Source: JBFMHD01 sp040752395 [NCBI: Candidatus Hydrogenedentota bacterium]
GTDB taxonomy: Bacteria; JBFMHD01
Direction of reading: 5' to 3'
Assembly (NCBI GenBank): GCA_040752395.1
Contig: JBFMHD010000066.1
Span: 1 to 12,680 of the forward strand
Length of the DNA stretch: 12,680 nucleotides
Below the pieces are notes generated by a model, which did no database searches, was not told where the DNA came from, and saw only the letters and a list, made by a program, of their open reading frames with translations. Below are positions 1,122 through 11,928 of this stretch, in pieces. The translations under genes were made by a program, and so were the position numbers. The first letter of the stretch is position 1. Each line of letters begins with the position of its first letter.

Positions 1122-2144
1122 ATGTTAAAAAAATGTTTAGTAGTTTTACTGGTATTATTTATACCAGCGGCGGTGTTAGCCGTAGGAACACCGGCTAATA
1201 CACAAATCGTCAATGGTGATGACAATGCCACAGCTAATCAAGCAGATACCTGGGGCGACATTGTTTTTGAGTATGTAAGCGAGTACAATGATACGTTTTA
1301 TGCAACATCAGATACAGTTCAAGCCATAGTTGACACAGCTTATGACCTTGCAGTGATAGCTGATTATGACACGGAGTATAGTGGTAAAGGAGATACAAAG
1401 TATATCTCGTACAGTATCACAAACACAGGTAATTCAACAGACAGTATCTCATTACAGGTTGAATATGTTAGCGAGGATCCGTGGTCATACAAGATATTTC
1501 TTGATGATGACAATGACGGTGTTCACGATGCGAACGAGTTAACCGAGATATCGTCTGTATTATTAGCTGAGGATGCAGGTGAGAGTATCTTTGTAGCTGT
1601 AATAATTCCAGACACAGCGGTTGATTTAGACAGCACAAGGATCAGGTTAATAGTGACAGATGGAGTTGGTGCTTCTGGCGACTCGTGGCCGAATCTTGCA
1701 GCAAATAGTCGTGATAGACAGACAGATACAGTGCTTGTGATGATAGCAGGTCCTGTATTATTTGTGTCAAAGACTGTGGACACGACCACGTATGGGACAG
1801 ACCCGTATGATACTTTAATCTACACAATATATTATGACAATGATGGTTCAGGCACAGCAACGAATGTAGTGATTTACGATGTATTGCCGCGGTATACAAC
1901 GTGGGTAGTCGCGTCAATCGATACATCAGGGTTACATGATACACCAACATGTTCAGCGAGCGTGGCATTTGATACAGATTTCAGTGGTCCGTTTGAGTCG
2001 GCTGAGGGTACGAATGTACAGAGAATACGGATAACGTTATTAACCAATATATCTCCTAATGATGGAGATGTGTACGGTACTGTTCAGAATACTGCTACTG
2101 ACAAAGATGCAGGCTACATAAGGTTCAGAGTCACGATTAATTAA
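1122..2144 (+). CDS. Secreted DUF11-domain surface protein
   Basis: 340 residues. The ATG is preceded by a strong Shine-Dalgarno (GGAGGTG at 1110-1116, 5-nt spacing). Residues 1-20 are a classical signal peptide (MLKKCLVVLLVLFIPAAVLA) with cleavage expected after A20. The mature N-terminus starts with TPANTQI, a module shared with the next gene (TPENTQI). Residues about 75-210 form a beta-rich domain with NTGNSTDSISLQVEY, and residues 128-139 carry an Asp-rich DDDNDGVHDANE loop resembling EF-hand-like or thrombospondin-3-like calcium sites. Residues about 211-340 are a DUF11-type domain (LFVSKTVD... TLIYTIYYDN... VVIYDVLP). There is no transmembrane anchor or C-terminal sorting tail. Inference: an exported, possibly calcium-stabilised structural or adhesive protein of the same surface cluster. 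No enzymatic motif is visible. Confidence 0.85.
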   Translation: MLKKCLVVLLVLFIPAAVLAVGTPANTQIVNGDDNATANQADTWGDIVFEYVSEYNDTFYATSDTVQAIVDTAYDLAVIADYDTEYSGKGDTKYISYSITNTGNSTDSISLQVEYVSEDPWSYKIFLDDDNDGVHDANELTEISSVLLAEDAGESIFVAVIIPDTAVDLDSTRIRLIVTDGVGASGDSWPNLAANSRDRQTDTVLVMIAGPVLFVSKTVDTTTYGTDPYDTLIYTIYYDNDGSGTATNVVIYDVLPRYTTWVVASIDTSGLHDTPTCSASVAFDTDFSGPFESAEGTNVQRIRITLLTNISPNDGDVYGTVQNTATDKDAGYIRFRVTIN

Positions 2145-2290
2145 AAACGATATAAACGCCTCTGTATAGAAAGGCTTTAAGTAAGAAACGCAACACATCC
2201 TTATGTTAGTAAGGTCAAGATGGCTTTTTTACGGTACAGATTAAGTTCTGCAATCCCTGATTGGTTCATGATTTGCAGGATATGGCGTTA

Positions 2291-2326
2291 TTTCTTAATT
2301 CTTTAATTCTTATTTCTTATTTTTAA
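2291..2326 (+). repeat. Degenerate 7/8-bp tandem repeat upstream of the 653-aa gene
   Basis: The stretch reads as TTTCTTA, ATTCTTTA, ATTCTTA, TTTCTTA, TTTTTAA: units of 7 bp with one of 8, ending one base before the Shine-Dalgarno of the next gene. It belongs to the style of short tandem repeats seen at 4323-4471 and 12467-12611. The remaining 146 bp of this intergenic gap (2145-2290) hold only weak hairpins (2199-2214 and 2248-2278) and no gene. Confidence 0.6.
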
Positions 2327-2340
2327 GAGGAGTAGGTGCT

Positions 2341-4302
2341 TTGAAGGTTATTAAACCTTATTGCATACTATTTAAAATACTTACCAAATGGCAGAATGGC
2401 TTAAGGCACTGCCTTATGGGAATCCCTCTATTACTACTATTAGTGTGCAGTAATTCGTTATATGCACTTACTCCAGAGAATACACAAATCGAGAATGCTG
2501 CTTATTTTGATTATGAAGATGAATATACTGATACTTATCAAACAGCAACAGATACAGTGACAATGACTGTAGGTTATTTATTCGAGGCTTATTTAAGTTC
2601 AGATTCAGGGATAAGGTATGGAGATAGGGGGGAGAGTGTATCTTTTGGTTTCTATGTTGAGAATCGTGGTAATGCTGGTGATACGTATACCTTTGTGGCA
2701 CATGGTCTCTATGGGAATGAAATATTTGCTGATACCCTGGTTGAGAATGGTTTATACGATACGGGGGAATTGGCTATTGATACAAAATATTTTGCAATCA
2801 ATGAGACATTACCCATAGTTTTTGTTATCAAGATACCTGATGGAGCTGTGAATGGTAATAGAGACACGTTGAATCTGTATATTATTTCGTTTAAAGACCC
2901 AAGCTGTTCAAAATTATATAAAGCTCAAGCTGTATGTTCATCACTTATCTCAGGGCTATGCGGGTTCGAATTATCAATAGATACACCGCTGTATCAATAT
3001 GCTGACTATACACTTACAATAACTGCTCTGGATGGTTTATTCCAACAATATACCGCATATAGTGGTACCACAACGTTGTATGTAAATACAGAAACAATCG
3101 TTTTAGAGAACTGGGATAGCGGTATCATAACATATAGACTGACATTTCTTGATACTGGAATATATACAATTCGGGTAGTAGATAATACAGATACGTCAGT
3201 GGGTGAAACAGTAATTATTTATGTATATGAGGATACGAGTACACCGATAGCGCCATTAGTGTGTCCGCTTAATATTAAGATACGGGGTAATGAGGTGGCA
3301 TTAATCTCGATATTTTCAGATACGCTATTAAACGTAGATTTTGAGTACCGCTCAAGTAGTAGTATGGATACCTGGAAATTCATAAATAACGACACAGTGC
3401 CGAGGCGGTGGGGGGTATATTGGAACACAGATAGTGTACCAGAGGGCAGCTATGAGTTACGAGTGGTAGGTTCAACGGCAAGCTGCACAGATATGACCCC
3501 AGGGATATATGAGATAATAGTAAACAGGAATGATTATGATATAGATGAGTATCGGGATGTTGTGACAAATGAGCATATAAAAAGGCAGAGAATAAGACCG
3601 AACACTGATAATGTGACATTGTTATTAGATGGGTGTCGGGTAGAGATACCAGCTGGTATAATATCAGAGACAACGTATTTCAGGGCTACGGTGCATAACA
3701 ATGCGCCGTATGGTCCACCGAACAGGAGTGAAATAACTGATCTTGGTATATATCGTAGTTTTGAGTTTGAGAACGGGTATGTAAGGTTTCCGAAGGATAT
3801 AAGATTGTGGATGGGGTTTGAGGATGCAGGGGCAGAAGAAAAAAAATACAGGATATTTACTTATGATAATACATTATCAGTTTGGGTAGAATCAGTTGGT
3901 TCGTATGTTAATATGGATGAGGATTATGTAGAGGTGAGCTTAAATCATTTGAGTTTATTTGCAGTATTTGGGTTCATACCTGCGACGAATCTTTCGGGTT
4001 TAGAGGTTTATCCGAATCCGTGGAAACCGAATGACGGTGACCCGAATACCGGTAAAGAATGGACAGCTGATGATCCTACAAGCGGTATAATATTTGCGAA
4101 TGTGACTGATAGAGTGAGGATACAGATTTATACTATTGCCGGGAAATTAGTTGTAGACAGGACAATCTCAAATACAGGTGGAAATGTCAGGTGGGATGTT
4201 AGAAATGACCGTGGTGGTAAGGTTGCAACAGGGATGTATATCGCTGTGATAACAGGCGATAACGGAGAGAAGGTAATAAGAAAGATAATGGTGATAAGAT
4301 AG
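2341..4302 (+). CDS. Large secreted multidomain protein with C-terminal FlgD-Ig / type IX sorting-like domain
   Basis: 653 residues from a TTG start with a good Shine-Dalgarno (AGGAG at 2328-2332, 8-nt spacing). An ATG at 2416 (residue 26) is an alternative that would give a more usual signal-peptide n-region. The hydrophobic core is residues 27-40, with cleavage expected after SLYA (residue 42). Mature parts: a TPENTQI module homologous to the upstream protein with a NEW3/DUF11-like domain (about 43-185); beta-sandwich domains (about 205-295 and 300-395); a ZU5-like segment (about 420-545; VEIPAGIISETTYFRATV then a terminal SLFAVFG); and a C-terminal domain (about 550-653) with EVYPNPWKPNDG, VRIQIYTIAGKLV, WDVRNDRGG and GMYIAVITGDNGEKVIRKI. 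That last pattern is the FlgD-like Ig / TIGR04183-type tail used as a type IX secretion signal in Bacteroidota and relatives. The PorV-like gene directly downstream fits such a role. The cargo function is unknown and no catalytic motif is visible. Confidence 0.85.
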   Translation: MKVIKPYCILFKILTKWQNGLRHCLMGIPLLLLLVCSNSLYALTPENTQIENAAYFDYEDEYTDTYQTATDTVTMTVGYLFEAYLSSDSGIRYGDRGESVSFGFYVENRGNAGDTYTFVAHGLYGNEIFADTLVENGLYDTGELAIDTKYFAINETLPIVFVIKIPDGAVNGNRDTLNLYIISFKDPSCSKLYKAQAVCSSLISGLCGFELSIDTPLYQYADYTLTITALDGLFQQYTAYSGTTTLYVNTETIVLENWDSGIITYRLTFLDTGIYTIRVVDNTDTSVGETVIIYVYEDTSTPIAPLVCPLNIKIRGNEVALISIFSDTLLNVDFEYRSSSSMDTWKFINNDTVPRRWGVYWNTDSVPEGSYELRVVGSTASCTDMTPGIYEIIVNRNDYDIDEYRDVVTNEHIKRQRIRPNTDNVTLLLDGCRVEIPAGIISETTYFRATVHNNAPYGPPNRSEITDLGIYRSFEFENGYVRFPKDIRLWMGFEDAGAEEKKYRIFTYDNTLSVWVESVGSYVNMDEDYVEVSLNHLSLFAVFGFIPATNLSGLEVYPNPWKPNDGDPNTGKEWTADDPTSGIIFANVTDRVRIQIYTIAGKLVVDRTISNTGGNVRWDVRNDRGGKVATGMYIAVITGDNGEKVIRKIMVIR

Positions 4303-4310
4303 GGTTAAAG

Positions 4311-5744
4311 ATGCAAGATAACAAAAGAAGCAAGAAGCAAGAAACGGAAAACATAATCAAAGATGGAAAAAAGATTATGAGAAAAAAAGATTCAAAGATT
4401 GAAAGATTCAAAGATTCAAAGATTATTTCTGCATTCTGCATTCTTCTGATGCTTCTTGCTTCTACTTCTTATGCATCTCGCAATGATGCTGGTGAAAACG
4501 CAGCCTCGTTTTTAGAGGTAATGAAAGGCGCAGTACCAGCAGCAATGGGTGAGGCATTTGTTGCTGTTACTGATTATCCGATGCAGGGTATGTTTTACAA
4601 CCCTGGCCAGCTTGTTTACTTAAAAAGAAAGAATATATTATTCACACATCAGAACCTGATACAGGATATAGATTATGAATCATTAATGTTTGGGATACCC
4701 TTAAACCAAGAATCTGTGATCGGTGTTGGGTTAGACTATGTAGATTTAGGCAAAGTAAAACGGACTACGATACAGAGTTTCAATCAGGGAATAAATTTAG
4801 GCACAGCGAGCGGGAATGATCTAATGCTATCAGCATATTATGCAAGACCAATTACTGAGAGCCTTGGCATAGGAGCTGGAATAAAGTGGGTGAGAGAAAA
4901 GCTTGATGAAAAGGCTGCAAACTCAGTTAGTATAGATGCAGGATTGATATATAAATTACCGATAAGAGAGCTGACCTTTGGGGTCAGTTTAAGAAATTTG
5001 GGAACAAAATTAAAGTTTTATTCTGATAAAGAAAATATACCATTAACATTACAAACAGGGTTCCAGTATCTCTCACCAAATAAGAGGTTCAGAGTCTGTA
5101 TAGATGCGGATAAAGTGAGGAGAGAGGAGATAGGGTTACATTGTGGTGGCGAGTTAATGATAAAAGAGATATTGTTTTTGAGGATGGGATATAATTCTGC
5201 GATAGATGTTGATAACGGTTTAACATTAGGGTTCGGAATAAAGTATTACAATATAGGCTTTGATTATGCTTATGTACCATTTGGAGATATAGGAAGGAAT
5301 CACAGGTTTAGCGGGTATTGTGAGTTCGGTAAGAGTTATAAAGAAGAAGAGACAACAAGTTTCATAGAGAAGATCAGAGAGAGGTTTAAGAAAAAGAAAA
5401 GGGTAGAGATAATAAAAGAAGAAGCAAAAGAAGAAAAGGAAGAGGTAAGAGTGATTGAACCGAGGTATGGACCTTTTATCGGGGTAGGGGAAAGCAAGCG
5501 GGATTGGTTAGACGAATTATTGCCTATTGTTTTCAAGACCCAGATTGAGTTAGCAGGAAAAGACATAAGTCCTGCGAATCAGTTAGCTGGTAGATATTAT
5601 ATTTATGAGGAAGAGACGATTATAAAGATACATTTAGAGATAGACTTAATAGACGAGGCTGGAACTATTATTAAGACCTTAAGCAGAGACGGAGAATTAA
5701 ATAGAATAATAATTTTGATCCAGGAATTAATAAAGCAATTATGA
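4311..5744 (+). CDS. PorV/PorQ-like (UPF0164) outer-membrane barrel with extra C-terminal domain
   Basis: 477 residues from the ATG at 4311 (AGGG at 4301-4304), but the better start is probably the ATG at 4377 (residue 23), which gives a shorter n-region before the hydrophobic core IISAFCILLMLLASTSYA (cleavage near residue 55). Residues 61-340 show the hallmarks of the PorV/PorQ family: NAASFLEVMKGAVPAAMGEAFVAV, then a YNPGQL motif (residues 96-101) and alternating beta strands ending in FSGYCEFG. PorV-type barrels sit in the outer membrane and, in type IX secretion, take part in delivering sorting-domain proteins to the surface. Unusually, a highly charged linker (about 342-380, many K and E) follows, then about 95 residues (383-477) with LAGRYYIYEEETIIKIHLEIDL and DEAGTIIKTLSRDGEL. 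These resemble the half-domain of FlgO/CsgG/TolB-type periplasmic proteins (a '...vrI...LiD..tGeii' pattern). The gap to the upstream gene is 8 bp, so an operon is likely. The N-terminal coding region is built from 7/8-bp tandem repeats. Confidence 0.82.
   Translation: MQDNKRSKKQETENIIKDGKKIMRKKDSKIERFKDSKIISAFCILLMLLASTSYASRNDAGENAASFLEVMKGAVPAAMGEAFVAVTDYPMQGMFYNPGQLVYLKRKNILFTHQNLIQDIDYESLMFGIPLNQESVIGVGLDYVDLGKVKRTTIQSFNQGINLGTASGNDLMLSAYYARPITESLGIGAGIKWVREKLDEKAANSVSIDAGLIYKLPIRELTFGVSLRNLGTKLKFYSDKENIPLTLQTGFQYLSPNKRFRVCIDADKVRREEIGLHCGGELMIKEILFLRMGYNSAIDVDNGLTLGFGIKYYNIGFDYAYVPFGDIGRNHRFSGYCEFGKSYKEEETTSFIEKIRERFKKKKRVEIIKEEAKEEKEEVRVIEPRYGPFIGVGESKRDWLDELLPIVFKTQIELAGKDISPANQLAGRYYIYEEETIIKIHLEIDLIDEAGTIIKTLSRDGELNRIIILIQELIKQL
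4323..4343 (+). repeat. GCAAGAA-type 7-bp tandem repeat inside the barrel gene's 5' end
   Basis: Two exact GCAAGAA units (4330-4343) preceded by a degenerate unit. The unit is, on rotation, the reverse complement of the TTGCTTC unit repeated at 12591-12611. It lies between the two possible start codons (4311 and 4377). Confidence 0.7.
4326..4463 (+). repeat. Perfect 14-bp inverted repeat bracketing the likely start of the barrel gene
   Basis: The left arm 4326-4339 (AGAAGCAAGAAGCA) is the exact reverse complement of the right arm 4450-4463 (TGCTTCTTGCTTCT). The 110-nt loop contains the ATG at 4377 and the 8-bp repeat. In RNA the arms could pair around the start. Whether that matters for translation, or only reflects two repeats of one family in opposite orientation, is open. 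Confidence 0.6.
4386..4425 (+). repeat. Five-copy 8-bp tandem repeat AAAGATTC within coding sequence
   Basis: Five head-to-tail units at 4386, 4394, 4402, 4410 and 4418: three exact AAAGATTC plus AAAGATTG and AAAGATTA. Because 8 is not a multiple of 3, the frame rotates through the unit, producing the charged n-region KKDSKIERFKDSKI before the signal-peptide core. Confidence 0.85.
4431..4471 (+). repeat. 7-bp repeats encoding the signal-peptide core
   Basis: GCATTCT twice (4431-4444), a 6-bp spacer, then GCTTCTT, GCTTCTA and CTTCTTA. These bases encode the hydrophobic core and cleavage region of the barrel's signal peptide. The 17 bases at 4451-4467 are identical to 12600-12616 in the non-coding right end. 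Confidence 0.75.
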
Positions 5745-6089: not shown

Positions 6090-7487
6090 TTGAGAGATTT
6101 TTATAAAATTGTATTATGTTCAATTCTGGTTGCTGGTTTTATTCTCTCCTGTGGACGGAAAGAAAGTGAATACACAGCTGACGGCAGATTGATACTGGAT
6201 TACTGGGAGAAGTGGACAGGGTTTGAGGCTGAGGCAATGGAAAAGGTTGTGGAAGAGTTTAACAGATCACAGGATAGATTATTTGTTAAATATGTAGTAA
6301 CAGCAGGGATTGATAGAAAGCTTCTTGTTGCCACAGCTGGTGGTGATCCACCTGATATCGCCGGCATCTGGACCTGGGCAATCAATATTTATGCAGACAA
6401 AGGCGCGATAACCCGTCTTGATGATTATGCAAAAAAAGCAGGTATTACACGCAATGATTATATTCATGTATTTTATGATATGTGTACCCACCGTGGTAAA
6501 TTATGGGCGTTGCCTACCACACCAGCAACTATCGCCCTTCACTGGAATAAACGATTATTTAGAGAAGCTGGTTTAGACCCAAACAAAGCACCGAAAACTA
6601 TACAGGAATTAGATGAATACGCAGAAAAAATGACATTATATAAACTTCCTGATGGCAAGATTATCTCTTATCCAGAGTTAATTAAATTACCTGATTATAA
6701 ATCAATTATTAGCAATGCTGAAATTATACAGATGGGTTTTTTGCCTTTTGAGCCAGGGTGGTGGAACTGGGCGTGGAACCATTATTTTTGGGGTACTATG
6801 TGGAACGGAAGGGATAAGATGACTATAAATACGCCAGAACAAATCAAGGCTTACAAATGGATTGCGAGTTACAGCGAAAAATTTGGGAAAGACCTTGTAG
6901 AGCGGTTTACAAGCAGTTTTGCAGGTCAGTTTGCTTCAAGTCAGAACGCGTTCTTATGTGGCAGGGTTGCTATGGAGATTCAGGGCGTATGGATGTACAA
7001 TTTCATAGACAAGTATGCTCCGGGGATGGACTGGGGCTGCGCACCATTCCCAACAGATGCAGAGGTCAAAGGATTGGAGAATGTTACAGTAGTTGAAGGT
7101 GATGTCCTTGTTATCCCTTTAGGTGCCCGGCACCCTGAAGAATCGTTTGAATTCATCAAGTTTGTTCAAAACCAGAAATATATGGAGATGCTGTGTATGG
7201 GTCATCGGAAATTTACACCGCTTGCTTCTGTGAGTGAAGATTTTTATAAGAATCATCCGCATCCTTATTTAAATGTTTTCCGTGAACTTGCAAAAAGTAA
7301 GTATGCTTTTACTGTCCCAGCAATAGGTATATCAAACGAGATTTTGAGAGAATATAATGTAGCTTGTGATTTAGTTAGAAAATTAGAGTTATCTCCAGAG
7401 AAAGCACTCAATGATTTACAAGTGCAGCTTCAGAATAGCCTGGATAGAGAGATTCAACGACTGAAACGAAGGGGTAAATGGCAATGA
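6090..7487 (+). CDS. Lipoprotein extracellular sugar-binding protein of a CUT1 ABC importer
   Basis: 465 residues from a TTG start with GGAGA 6 nt upstream. Residues 1-20 are a lipoprotein signal with lipobox-like ILSC and the lipid-carrying Cys at residue 21, so it is expected to be membrane-anchored facing the periplasm. Family-1 solute-binding features follow: a first lobe with LDYWEKWTG, the GGDPPDI motif (84-90), NKRLFREAGLD (153-163), and the hinge/second-lobe motif CGRVAMEIQGVW (290-301). Residues 224-238 carry six tryptophans plus Tyr and Phe, suggesting a strongly aromatic sugar-stacking site. The next gene overlaps its end by 10 bp, and the two permeases downstream make the assignment firm. 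The substrate (oligosaccharide, glycerol phosphate or other) cannot be read from sequence. It has its own promoter. Confidence 0.92.
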   Translation: MRDFYKIVLCSILVAGFILSCGRKESEYTADGRLILDYWEKWTGFEAEAMEKVVEEFNRSQDRLFVKYVVTAGIDRKLLVATAGGDPPDIAGIWTWAINIYADKGAITRLDDYAKKAGITRNDYIHVFYDMCTHRGKLWALPTTPATIALHWNKRLFREAGLDPNKAPKTIQELDEYAEKMTLYKLPDGKIISYPELIKLPDYKSIISNAEIIQMGFLPFEPGWWNWAWNHYFWGTMWNGRDKMTINTPEQIKAYKWIASYSEKFGKDLVERFTSSFAGQFASSQNAFLCGRVAMEIQGVWMYNFIDKYAPGMDWGCAPFPTDAEVKGLENVTVVEGDVLVIPLGARHPEESFEFIKFVQNQKYMEMLCMGHRKFTPLASVSEDFYKNHPHPYLNVFRELAKSKYAFTVPAIGISNEILREYNVACDLVRKLELSPEKALNDLQVQLQNSLDREIQRLKRRGKWQ

Positions 7488-8371: not shown

Positions 8372-9754
8372 ATGAACGAAAACGTTGCGGCACAAAGACT
8401 AAATAGAATGATTATTTACGTTCTTTTGGTTATCGGCTCTATAATATTTTTCACTCCTTTTATGTGGCTTCTATGTACATCGTTTAAACCAATCGAACAA
8501 ACAATGAAAATCCCTATCACATGGCTGCCGCGGGCAGATTATATTAACTATGATTACAAAGAACTTGCAGCTTTTGATGTAATACTTGTTAAGGTTTTAG
8601 AGGGTCCAAAGCAGGGTAAAGAGGTACTGGTAGCAAGTGATGAATTCAGAGACGGGAAAGTAACGTTTATGGATGAAAAGGGGACACAATCATATGGTGC
8701 AGAACCAGTCCCATATAACACTCTATATCTTCGTATCCAGCAAAGCCTTGAAATCGCTGAACATGGTTATATGGTAAAGGTTGTAGAAGGGCCGAAGCAG
8801 GGGTTACGACTCATTATACGGGAAGAGGAGTATTGTGATGGCAAGGTGAGATTAGAGGTTCAGGAAGCTGATAGAATTTTTTCACGGGATTATAGATGTG
8901 ACATAATAAAACCTGTTAAGAAAGGCTGGGTAAAGGTTGTTGAGGATGTAGAGAAAGGGAAATCATACTGCCAGCTATTTTCTAAAGGTCGGTCCAGATA
9001 TTTTGAAAAGGTGATAAGTAAACGAGATGTTCTCTGGAGTTGTATACCGAAGAGCGAGATTACAACCAGAATAGAGTTCCGGCTTGAAAACTACAAGATA
9101 TTATGGAATACAATACCATTTTTTAAATACCTGAAGAACACGCTGTTCGTTGCTGTGGTTGGTACTATTGCTATGACATTTTCGAGCGCGCTTGTAGCTT
9201 ATGGATTTTCGCGCATTAAATGGAAAGGCCGAGATTTTTTCTTTGCAGTCTCTATTGCCACGATGATGATACCATTTCCGGTGACTATGGTGCCATTATA
9301 TACAATTTTTAAAACGTTCGGAATGATAGGAACCCTGAAGCCGCTCTGGGTGCCGACTTTTTTTGCATCTGCGTTTAATATCTTTTTACTCCGTCAATTT
9401 TTTATGACCATCCCATTTGAGTTATCTGAAGCAGCGATTGTTGACGGCTGCAACGAGTTCCAGATATTTTATCGTATAATACTACCTCTCTCAAAACCCG
9501 TGTTACTCGTGGTCGGGTTATTTCATTTTATGTATTCCTGGAACGATTTTATGGGACCACTTATTTATCTTAACAAACCCGAAACATTTACACTCTCACT
9601 CGGGTTGCAGCAATTCCAGAGTAAATCAGGCGGTGCTGAATGGCATCTCATTATGGCAATGAGCGTGCTTATTATATTGCCTGTTATAGTATTATTTTTC
9701 TTTACACAGAAGACGTTCATTCAGGGTATAGCTCTTACAGGCTCAAAAGAGTAG
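8372..9754 (+). CDS. MalG-type carbohydrate ABC permease with large repeat-bearing periplasmic insertion
   Basis: 460 residues, against about 270-300 for typical CUT1 MalG-type subunits. The start is 3 bp after the MalF-type stop, with GGAGG at 8356-8360. Residues 12-36 form TM1, followed by the conserved TSFKPIEQ and WLP segment (36-53). The normal family sequence resumes at about 237 with RLENYKILWNTIPFFKYLKNTLFVAV, then four further hydrophobic segments, the EAA loop EAAIVDGCNEFQIFYRIILP (353-372) and a final TM (425-445). The roughly 175 residues in between (about 60-235) are an insertion in the first periplasmic loop. It holds three divergent repeats: VKVLEGPKQGKEV (73-85), VKVVEGPKQGLRL (135-147) and VKVVEDVEKGKSY (187-199). 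The first two repeats also carry a DGKV motif about 10 residues later. No ATPase gene follows. Confidence 0.92.
   Translation: MNENVAAQRLNRMIIYVLLVIGSIIFFTPFMWLLCTSFKPIEQTMKIPITWLPRADYINYDYKELAAFDVILVKVLEGPKQGKEVLVASDEFRDGKVTFMDEKGTQSYGAEPVPYNTLYLRIQQSLEIAEHGYMVKVVEGPKQGLRLIIREEEYCDGKVRLEVQEADRIFSRDYRCDIIKPVKKGWVKVVEDVEKGKSYCQLFSKGRSRYFEKVISKRDVLWSCIPKSEITTRIEFRLENYKILWNTIPFFKYLKNTLFVAVVGTIAMTFSSALVAYGFSRIKWKGRDFFFAVSIATMMIPFPVTMVPLYTIFKTFGMIGTLKPLWVPTFFASAFNIFLLRQFFMTIPFELSEAAIVDGCNEFQIFYRIILPLSKPVLLVVGLFHFMYSWNDFMGPLIYLNKPETFTLSLGLQQFQSKSGGAEWHLIMAMSVLIILPVIVLFFFTQKTFIQGIALTGSKE
8582..9013 (+). repeat. Three divergent protein-level repeats within the MalG-type permease
   Basis: The units cover residues 71-102, 133-165 and 185-214 (8582-8677, 8768-8866 and 8924-9013). 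The first two share VKV(L/V)EGPKQG and DGKV. The third keeps VKVVE...KGK and a basic core but lacks GPKQ. DNA identity between units has already decayed at third positions, so the duplication is old and under protein-level selection rather than a recent tandem expansion. Confidence 0.75.
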
Positions 9755-10485: not shown

Positions 10486-11928
10486 ATGAGATATAAAAAA
10501 CTTATTGACTGGCTTGTCGCTCTTTCCTGGACTATTATTATTTATATTACTCTTCCAATTGGGCCTGATGTTATTAGATACTACACAGATTTAATAAATA
10601 ATAAAAATAGATTGCTAATTGATTATATACATAATAATCCAGTTTATAGTCAAAGTATAACTGAAAAACTGCTCTTTATACTTAATAAAATAAACGGTTA
10701 TCAGCTGATCGGCTGGTTCTCTGCTTTTATAATACTATGTTTTCTTATATACATTTATGTTAAATTAATAAAACTTAAAAGAACATTAGTTGAGATAATC
10801 CTTTATTTTTATATAGTGATTTTTTACGCCTATTTTCTTTTAACTATTAAGGTTCCTACAGAAAAGATACATTTTATTGAATACGGATTTTTATCTTATT
10901 TATTGTTTCGTGTATATTTTAATTATATATTTTCACCCGTTATATATATTTATACAATCATCACAGGCTATTATATCGGGATCTCAGATGAAATAATACA
11001 ACATATTTTGCCAAATCGTAATGGTGCGTTTATTGATGTTCTGTGGAACGGGATTTCAGTTTTACTTGGTACCTGTATTGTTATAATTATCAATGGTTTA
11101 AAAAGCCTTAAAGTAAAACTTGAAGCCAAAGAACTAAGTTATGTAAACTTATGCGTTATCGTGGCTATTTTGAGCACAGACATTTTTTTAGCTGTTGTTC
11201 AGGAATATGGTTATCTACATAAATTTGATGCTAATACATATTTTTATTCTCGGTTATCAATCCAAAATCTTCAAAGACTTGATAAAGATAGTTATCAGAA
11301 TTTTGCTAATATTCTTAACTCCTCAAATGATAAAAATTATGAGGATTTTATAAACAAAAGATATACTTCAAGGAGAGCCTCTTTTCTTCATGAGCTCCGG
11401 GTTCACCTATTCAGACGTGATAGACGTTTTATGCAATACCTTCATTACTCTTTAGTAAAAGATCGAAAATTTGACATTTCTATTATTAAAAACAGTGAGT
11501 ACCGTGATTATTATTATAGATATATTCAGTATTATATGAAGAAAGAGATTGTAGATGATGGTGTGATAAAAGAATATATCAATATATTAAAAACAAAGAC
11601 TCCAAAGGATGAGAGAGAGATACTTGAGGACTTATTTATATCTTATAAAGAGGACAAAATCGTATCAAATATTTTTAAGAATACATATAAAAATTCAATC
11701 TTTTATTGGGGCGATTCTTTTGTATCAGAGCTCTTCAAAAACCATAGTTTAGAATTTAATAGCCGATTTTATAAAAGCCCGGTGAGTGAGGATATAATAA
11801 CCTGGGTAAGAATGAAGGAGATATGGATTTATTCAATTATTATAATTATTTTTTTATTAGTTTTAGCTTTAAAATACTATAAATCGTGCAATAAACATAA
11901 GAGCAGCGATACCTATCATAATCCATAA
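10486..11928 (+). CDS. VanZ-like membrane protein with long C-terminal extension
   Basis: 480 residues. The first 240 contain about seven hydrophobic segments and the VanZ-family signature: KIHFIEYG (127-134), then SDEIIQHILPNRNGAFIDVLWN (167-188) with the conserved D168, E169, Q172, R178, D184 and N188. VanZ proteins are small membrane proteins; some contribute to teicoplanin resistance, while for most the function is unknown. The family is commonly about 120-200 residues, so the remaining part is unusual: residues about 241-445 are hydrophilic, rich in Tyr, Arg and Lys, with no motif I recognise, and a final transmembrane helix lies at 446-463. No Shine-Dalgarno precedes the ATG, and the codons are more AT-rich than in the transporter genes. 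Its last 60 bp overlap the convergent zinc-ribbon gene. No partner gene indicates its role. Confidence 0.8.
   Translation: MRYKKLIDWLVALSWTIIIYITLPIGPDVIRYYTDLINNKNRLLIDYIHNNPVYSQSITEKLLFILNKINGYQLIGWFSAFIILCFLIYIYVKLIKLKRTLVEIILYFYIVIFYAYFLLTIKVPTEKIHFIEYGFLSYLLFRVYFNYIFSPVIYIYTIITGYYIGISDEIIQHILPNRNGAFIDVLWNGISVLLGTCIVIIINGLKSLKVKLEAKELSYVNLCVIVAILSTDIFLAVVQEYGYLHKFDANTYFYSRLSIQNLQRLDKDSYQNFANILNSSNDKNYEDFINKRYTSRRASFLHELRVHLFRRDRRFMQYLHYSLVKDRKFDISIIKNSEYRDYYYRYIQYYMKKEIVDDGVIKEYINILKTKTPKDEREILEDLFISYKEDKIVSNIFKNTYKNSIFYWGDSFVSELFKNHSLEFNSRFYKSPVSEDIITWVRMKEIWIYSIIIIIFLLVLALKYYKSCNKHKSSDTYHNP

Follow-up and report, generated by a model that had tools for sequence, protein, structure and literature searches.

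The window analysed here, a single stretch of 12,680 nucleotides, encodes a CUT1 sugar importer whose G-type permease holds a long extra segment between its first two transmembrane helices. For binding-protein signalling to an ABC importer, the textbook case is the maltose transporter of E. coli and, to our knowledge, the P2 loop on its MalF subunit has seemed one clade's peculiarity. We ask what the extra segment is, where it came from and what it may contribute to the importer. The features concerned are as follows.

6090..7487, + strand: sugar ABC substrate-binding protein (SBP_bac_1/8; UgpB-like), with PF01547 at E=1.7e-23, PF13416 at E=4.2e-21 and an EPGWW segment
7478..8368, + strand: F-type (UgpA/MalF-like) permease, 296 aa, without an inserted domain; PF00528 at E=6.8e-16, residues 71-282 aligned to MalF 281-505
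8372..9754, + strand: G-type (UgpE/MalG-like) CUT1 permease, 460 aa, with the insert; PF00528 at E=9.2e-19 over residues 275-451
8396..8485, + strand: TM1, residues 9-38, from hydropathy; helix 3-44 in a low-confidence full-length model
8531..9073, + strand: inserted periplasmic domain, residues ~54-234, from alignment with the insert-less permease L002; all-beta model with pLDDT 81
9089..9142, + strand: conserved NY...NT segment, residues 240-257, immediately after the insert and entering TM2; aligned with the F-type NY...NT
9428..9451, + strand: EAA loop EAAIVDGC, residues 353-360, from the sequence

Gene context and position of the insert

The genes for the binding protein, the F subunit and the G subunit are adjacent and follow one another in this order, both in the window and in the insert-bearing loci long enough to show order. 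The G permease scores 68.3 bits with the BPD_transp_1 model (PF00528; cut-off 26.4) and falls far below the NCBIfam equivalog cut-offs for MalG (92.2 bits vs 261) and UgpE (111 bits vs 297). It possesses the EAA-X(3)-G loop (EAAIVDG at residues 353-359), a motif that PMC3150292 places in the cytoplasm and that forms a contact to the ATPase. All nine solved chains matched by phmmer, SugB, MalG and AlgM2 among them, give alignments that start at residue 232 or later. Among 2702 plasmid records matched by the whole permease, only one covers at least 80% of the query, and the best 20 of the 2702 match from residue 226 or later only; the insert alone found no match in the same plasmid collection at E<=1.

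Hydropathy places the insert between TM1 (residues 9-38) and TM2 (257-279), that is, in the P1 loop, and the insert-less sister permease L002 reads WLPS-KFQWNNY across the insertion point. An earlier, sequence-only reading had put the insertion between the TM1/WLP segment and the ENYK segment. MalG has six transmembrane helices. Because the EAA loop is cytoplasmic and there are six helices, the TM1-TM2 loop is periplasmic; a cytoplasmic location, which that reading had named as a counter-finding, is thus not what topology gives. The insertion in the G permease of the window is real and conserved. Chance or a frameshift artefact was ruled out by one clean frame and by homologous inserts in 12 other permeases.

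Several side observations concern the insert and its surroundings. The window insert (8531-9088) contains four cysteines, and none were seen by eye in eight aligned Omnitrophota inserts. Upstream, genes at 1122-5744 resemble those of surface or secretion proteins; one encodes a protein with DUF11, one a protein whose C-terminal stretch is like type IX sorting domains and one a PorV-like protein, and the scores of the latter two fall short of curated cut-offs. Downstream, the 480-aa product of 10486-11928 has a part that is VanZ-like (PF04892, E=7.9e-08) and another, long part that matches no family strongly.

Distribution and history of the insert

Five loci came out of a pattern scan of species genomes. 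One of them is L001, a permease of Candidatus Omnitrophota whose insert is shorter; another, L002, is a permease of Verrucomicrobia that has none. L004 was counted as insert-less, fewer than 290 codons being left after the F stop. With insert profiles, homologous shorter inserts were found in 8 Omnitrophota and 4 Verrucomicrobiota permeases over all draws, which overlap. In the phylum of L001 (Omnitrophota), 4 of 384 genomes were matched; drawing from the class of one of these gave 8 of 384, and the order to which L001's genome belongs gave 7 of 10. For Verrucomicrobiota, the phylum of L002, the count was 3 of 387, and for the order of one match there it was 4 of 223. These counts indicate that few genomes of either phylum have the insert and that a single small order has it commonly.

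The related insert sets recognise one another with hhalign probabilities of 99.2% (Omnitrophota-Verrucomicrobiota), 98.5% (window-Omnitrophota) and 89.1% (window-Verrucomicrobiota), and the 13 aligned inserts have seven invariant columns (P, G, G, G, W, E, N). When 34 permeases are placed on a tree by their C-terminal 222 residues, the 13 proteins with an insert fall on one side of a branch with modest support (82/61), a clustering that none of 500 label shuffles equalled. L002 is placed next outside them, with support of 100/97 for the 14. A single origin of the insert, before the Omnitrophota and Verrucomicrobiota versions split, is likely. The sequence-only reading had the window's lineage building the insert; as the domain is shared with both phyla, only an extra repeat, described below, is private to the window among the 13 compared.

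The insert is under purifying selection in Omnitrophota, with a constraint somewhat weaker than that of the core. Its dN/dS is 0.076-0.141 in all eight Omnitrophota pairs, which share sequences and of which two have an insert dS above 2. The core gives 0.027-0.066 in seven pairs, one core pair having been left out as saturated.

Repeat units within the insert

The insert can be divided into three units, all on the same strand.

8579..8764, + strand: repeat unit 1, residues 70-131, an extra unit present only in the window among the 13 homologous inserts
8765..8926, + strand: repeat unit 2, residues 132-185, which Omnitrophota inserts also have, from alignments
8927..9079, + strand: unit 3, residues 186-236, beginning with the conserved GWVxVxE strand; its likeness to units 1 and 2 is not significant

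Unit 1 (VKVLEGPKQG at 73-82) aligns to unit 2 (VKVVEGPKQG at 135-144) with a score of 81, and shuffled sequences score 21.9 +/- 4.2, with 0 of 5000 as high. By contrast, the score of unit 3 (VKVVEDVEKG at 187-196) was reached by 994 of 5000 shuffles against unit 2 and by 232 of 5000 against unit 1, neither of which is significant. At the level of sequence, units 1 and 2 are certainly true repeats, and unit 3 is a motif resemblance at a conserved strand, in which all 13 aligned inserts have the same G, W and E. The claim of a three-repeat insertion at residues of about 60-235 (8549-9079) thus stands for the insertion, now bounded at ~54-234 (8531-9073), and for two of the repeats; the third did not hold up.

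Unit 1 scores 81 with the window's own unit 2 and 18-66 with unit 2 of the 12 relatives. As it is closest to the unit beside it, the duplication would have occurred within the window's lineage. Of the stretches compared, the window's is 192 aa long and those of the 12 others are 102-119 aa, and the alignments point to duplication of the middle unit as the origin of the longer window insert.

Predicted fold

An AlphaFold model of the insert alone, a check that had been proposed along with the sequence-only reading, is folded and all-beta rather than disordered (pLDDT 81.0, pTM 0.62), with a similar strand order in units 1 and 2. We relied on this model because that of the full-length permease is of low confidence (62.8). 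A Foldseek search with it gave no match at E<=0.001. Its best matches, which are weak, were transcription complexes with an SPT5 (DSIF) chain (E from 0.025, probability 0.33), with NusG lower. The leading VIA-align results, both below the tool's trust level since a Z under 8 may reflect only a common arrangement, were the RBBP1 double Tudor (Z 5.9, rmsd 7.9, 90 aligned residues) and JMJD2A (9gii; Z 4.7, rmsd 1.5 over 40 residues), the latter on model residues 82-132, which correspond to unit 2. KOW and Tudor barrels are binders of nucleic acid or histones.

Family models gave a similar picture. KOW4_SPT5 matched the window sequence without significance (E=0.25, and 0.39 for the insert); SH3_1 matched one of the 13 inserts at E=0.00097, and the whole protein L011 scored 16.6 bits with it, short of the cut-off, 22.9. 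The family search gave no further match worth noting among the 13 inserts, and a viral fold library gave none at E<=0.001. DR_1245, the sole match of the insert profile among PDB sequences (E=0.77), was taken as chance. MalF is absent among the fold-search matches listed, which is no evidence of a difference. Modelling suggests that the insert may consist of SH3-like beta barrels. Homologues, topology and this model bear out the notion of a conserved, probably folded periplasmic module on the G subunit.

Relation to the P2 loop of MalF

The F and G subunits are homologous: their profiles align over 204 columns (E=8e-17) with the NY...NT segments in register. When the window F subunit is aligned to MalF, its residues 71-282 correspond to MalF 281-505 and residues 17-66 to MalF 67-113, the latter with only 2 bits. 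PMC3150292 gives P2 as MalF residues 91-271 and describes a contact of a MalF-P2 segment with MalE. Because of the F/G homology and the gap at P2 in the MalF alignment, P2 and the window insert lie in equivalent loops. By these alignments the insert is the pseudo-twofold mate of MalF P2. It had been described as lying at another site than P2; the homology makes it the symmetric one. A comparison of the insert profile with solved chains returned no MalF chain at E<=5; any homology to P2 would be a distant one.

Other inserts in the same loop

Large inserts at this position are not confined to the window type. PMC2246101 (2008) describes a hydrophilic region of ~500 aa between TM1 and TM2 of Thermotogales MalG1/2, said to be absent from all other MalG and of unknown function. 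A literature search on this insert or on insertions into the loop, with few subscription journals covered, gave this as the only clearly relevant paper among those listed. We take L029 (870 aa) to be of the Thermotogales MalG1/2 type from its size and MalG score; it looks coiled-coil by eye. Compared as a single sequence with the window-type insert, L029 gave an hhalign probability of 0.1, related insert sets giving 89-99 as controls even where one side was a single sequence. In Thermotogota, the phylum of L005, the UgpE model hits open frames of at least 700 residues in at least 30 of 31 genomes, among the matches listed. These long frames match the model only from position 42-67 on, and one holds a TAG. 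L030, L050, L054 and L055 have 461-494 residues between TM1 and the core, and L031, L051 and L053 (Thermotogota, lengths 392-419) carry an insert of ~140-160 aa in the TM1-TM2 loop. L029, L030 and L031 all belong to genome G855, which therefore holds three insert types without detectable profile relation.

In Verrucomicrobiota, L044-L046 (frames 554-614) have inserts of ~285-297 aa, L047 (frame 634) has one of ~363 aa, and L048 represents a further, short insert type. In a survey of the phylum of L002, 19 of 59 genomes were matched, and 4 of 26 rows had frames of at least 554. L049, with a 375-codon frame, has no large loop insert as far as TM1 could be placed by eye; L052 was left out for want of a usable frame. 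All 21 pairings of seven insert sets gave hhalign probabilities of at most 0.5%, the one-sequence sets L029, L047 and L048 being weaker tests. In Thermotogota and Verrucomicrobiota this loop thus carries no fewer than five further types of insert, among which profiles detect no relation to the window type.

The statement that MalG normally has no such domain was too strong, given Thermotogales MalG1/2 and the other Thermotogota and Verrucomicrobiota inserts. The window-type insert itself was not seen in the solved MalG-type chains, while other inserts at the site are common. Conceivably, G-type CUT1 permeases offer in their TM1-TM2 loop a general socket into which different bacterial lineages have independently plugged at least six unrelated domains, each as a docking or sensing device for its cognate binding protein or substrate. 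This is a tentative reading, with the balance somewhat against it.

Binding proteins and substrates

The insert had been proposed to be fitted to the aromatic-rich binding protein of the locus. All 11 full-length binding proteins encoded next to an insert-bearing permease have the aromatic EPGWW segment, a count that leaves out the fragmentary ones of L008 and L015; of seven next to insert-less permeases, one has it. That one belongs to L002, the nearest sister. As the insert-less L002 has EPGWW, the segment goes with the transporter clade and not with the insert, and this binding-protein family needs no insert; the proposed fit is accordingly not borne out. At L066 no binding protein was detected at the locus. 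At L058, 3596-6592 is a 999-codon binding-protein frame with a long upstream extension, perhaps from a wrong start.

Omnitrophota loci have glycoside hydrolase genes near the importer, namely GH65 (L001), GH94 (L060, L062), GH130 (L062) and GH35 (L064), and the Verrucomicrobiota locus L059 has a GH10 and a sulfatase gene. The presence of these genes suggests that the substrates of insert-bearing importers are oligosaccharides. In the window, none of the nine stretches scanned with Pfam, which leave out the open frame 2-1078, gave a glycosidase.

Proposed function

We propose that the insert is a periplasmic SH3-like module on the G subunit that acts as the mate of the P2 loop and touches the binding protein, its middle unit having been duplicated later; we give this reading about an even chance. 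MalE reportedly interacts with loops P2 of MalF and P1 of MalG, as Daus et al. are said to have found in 2007. We infer that the insert most likely touches the substrate-binding protein. It would add to the importer a contact surface for this protein, mirroring P2, and may keep it near or orient it over the translocation pore, with a domain on G and none on F, the reverse of E. coli. One insertion would have preceded the Omnitrophota/Verrucomicrobiota split, and the later duplication in the window's lineage may lengthen the module's reach.

The same domain could instead bind the ligand, sensing an oligosaccharide near the pore entrance. The GH65, GH94, GH130 and GH35 genes near Omnitrophota importers make such substrates probable, and the ~140-160 aa insert of L031, L051 and L053 reads like a carbohydrate-binding sandwich, an impression for which L031 gave no such Pfam match. 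However, no sugar-binding family matches the window-type insert, and its seven invariant columns look structural rather than ligand-binding; we consider a sensing role unlikely. We would be more surprised still if the insert served to anchor the importer in the envelope through peptidoglycan, an outer-membrane partner or a periplasmic protein, in the manner of SH3b wall-binding domains. The hints of an SH3-like fold, an autolysin-repeat row included (4epc, Z 2.6), are consistent with such an anchor, as is the SH3_1 match in one insert with the sub-threshold score of L011, but the better structural rows are KOW and Tudor ones, every row being weak, and the loop would leave little room for a long tether. 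It is similarly improbable that the insert is a brace of the F/G heterodimer or a spacer tolerated without a specific partner. Several insert types without detectable relation in one loop are what a permissive site would show, yet the low dN/dS and the conservation across two phyla speak against a spacer that is merely passive; a brace would be compatible with both.

Comparison with known transporters

The contact module proposed here can be set beside known systems. With UgpE, MalG, SugB and AlgM2 the window permease has in common the core, the EAA loop and the operon order; the solved SugB, MalG and AlgM2 chains align with it only from residue 232. The permease parts that lack a model in the family libraries used now have coordinates. 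For the insert model itself, the SH3-like barrels of SPT5, NusG, JMJD2A and RBBP1 are the best structural matches, all of them weak.

We regard the window insert as the same kind of element as P2 of MalF and the MalG region of Thermotogales; its sequence could not be related to either. Thermotogales MalG1/2 are likewise G-type permeases with a large insert in this loop, of ~500 aa against residues ~54-234 in the window. Nature thus offers transporters in which F, G or neither subunit bears a domain, which makes the roles of these loops testable by comparison. The more interesting part is that one loop holds many seemingly unrelated inserts. Should the socket reading be true, the window device would be one that grew through barrel duplication, akin to P2 on the mirror-image subunit of E. 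coli. In E. coli MalFGK2, P2 likewise lies between the first two core transmembrane helices, just before the equivalent of NY...NT; there the domain is carried by F, whereas in the window it is carried by G and F has none.
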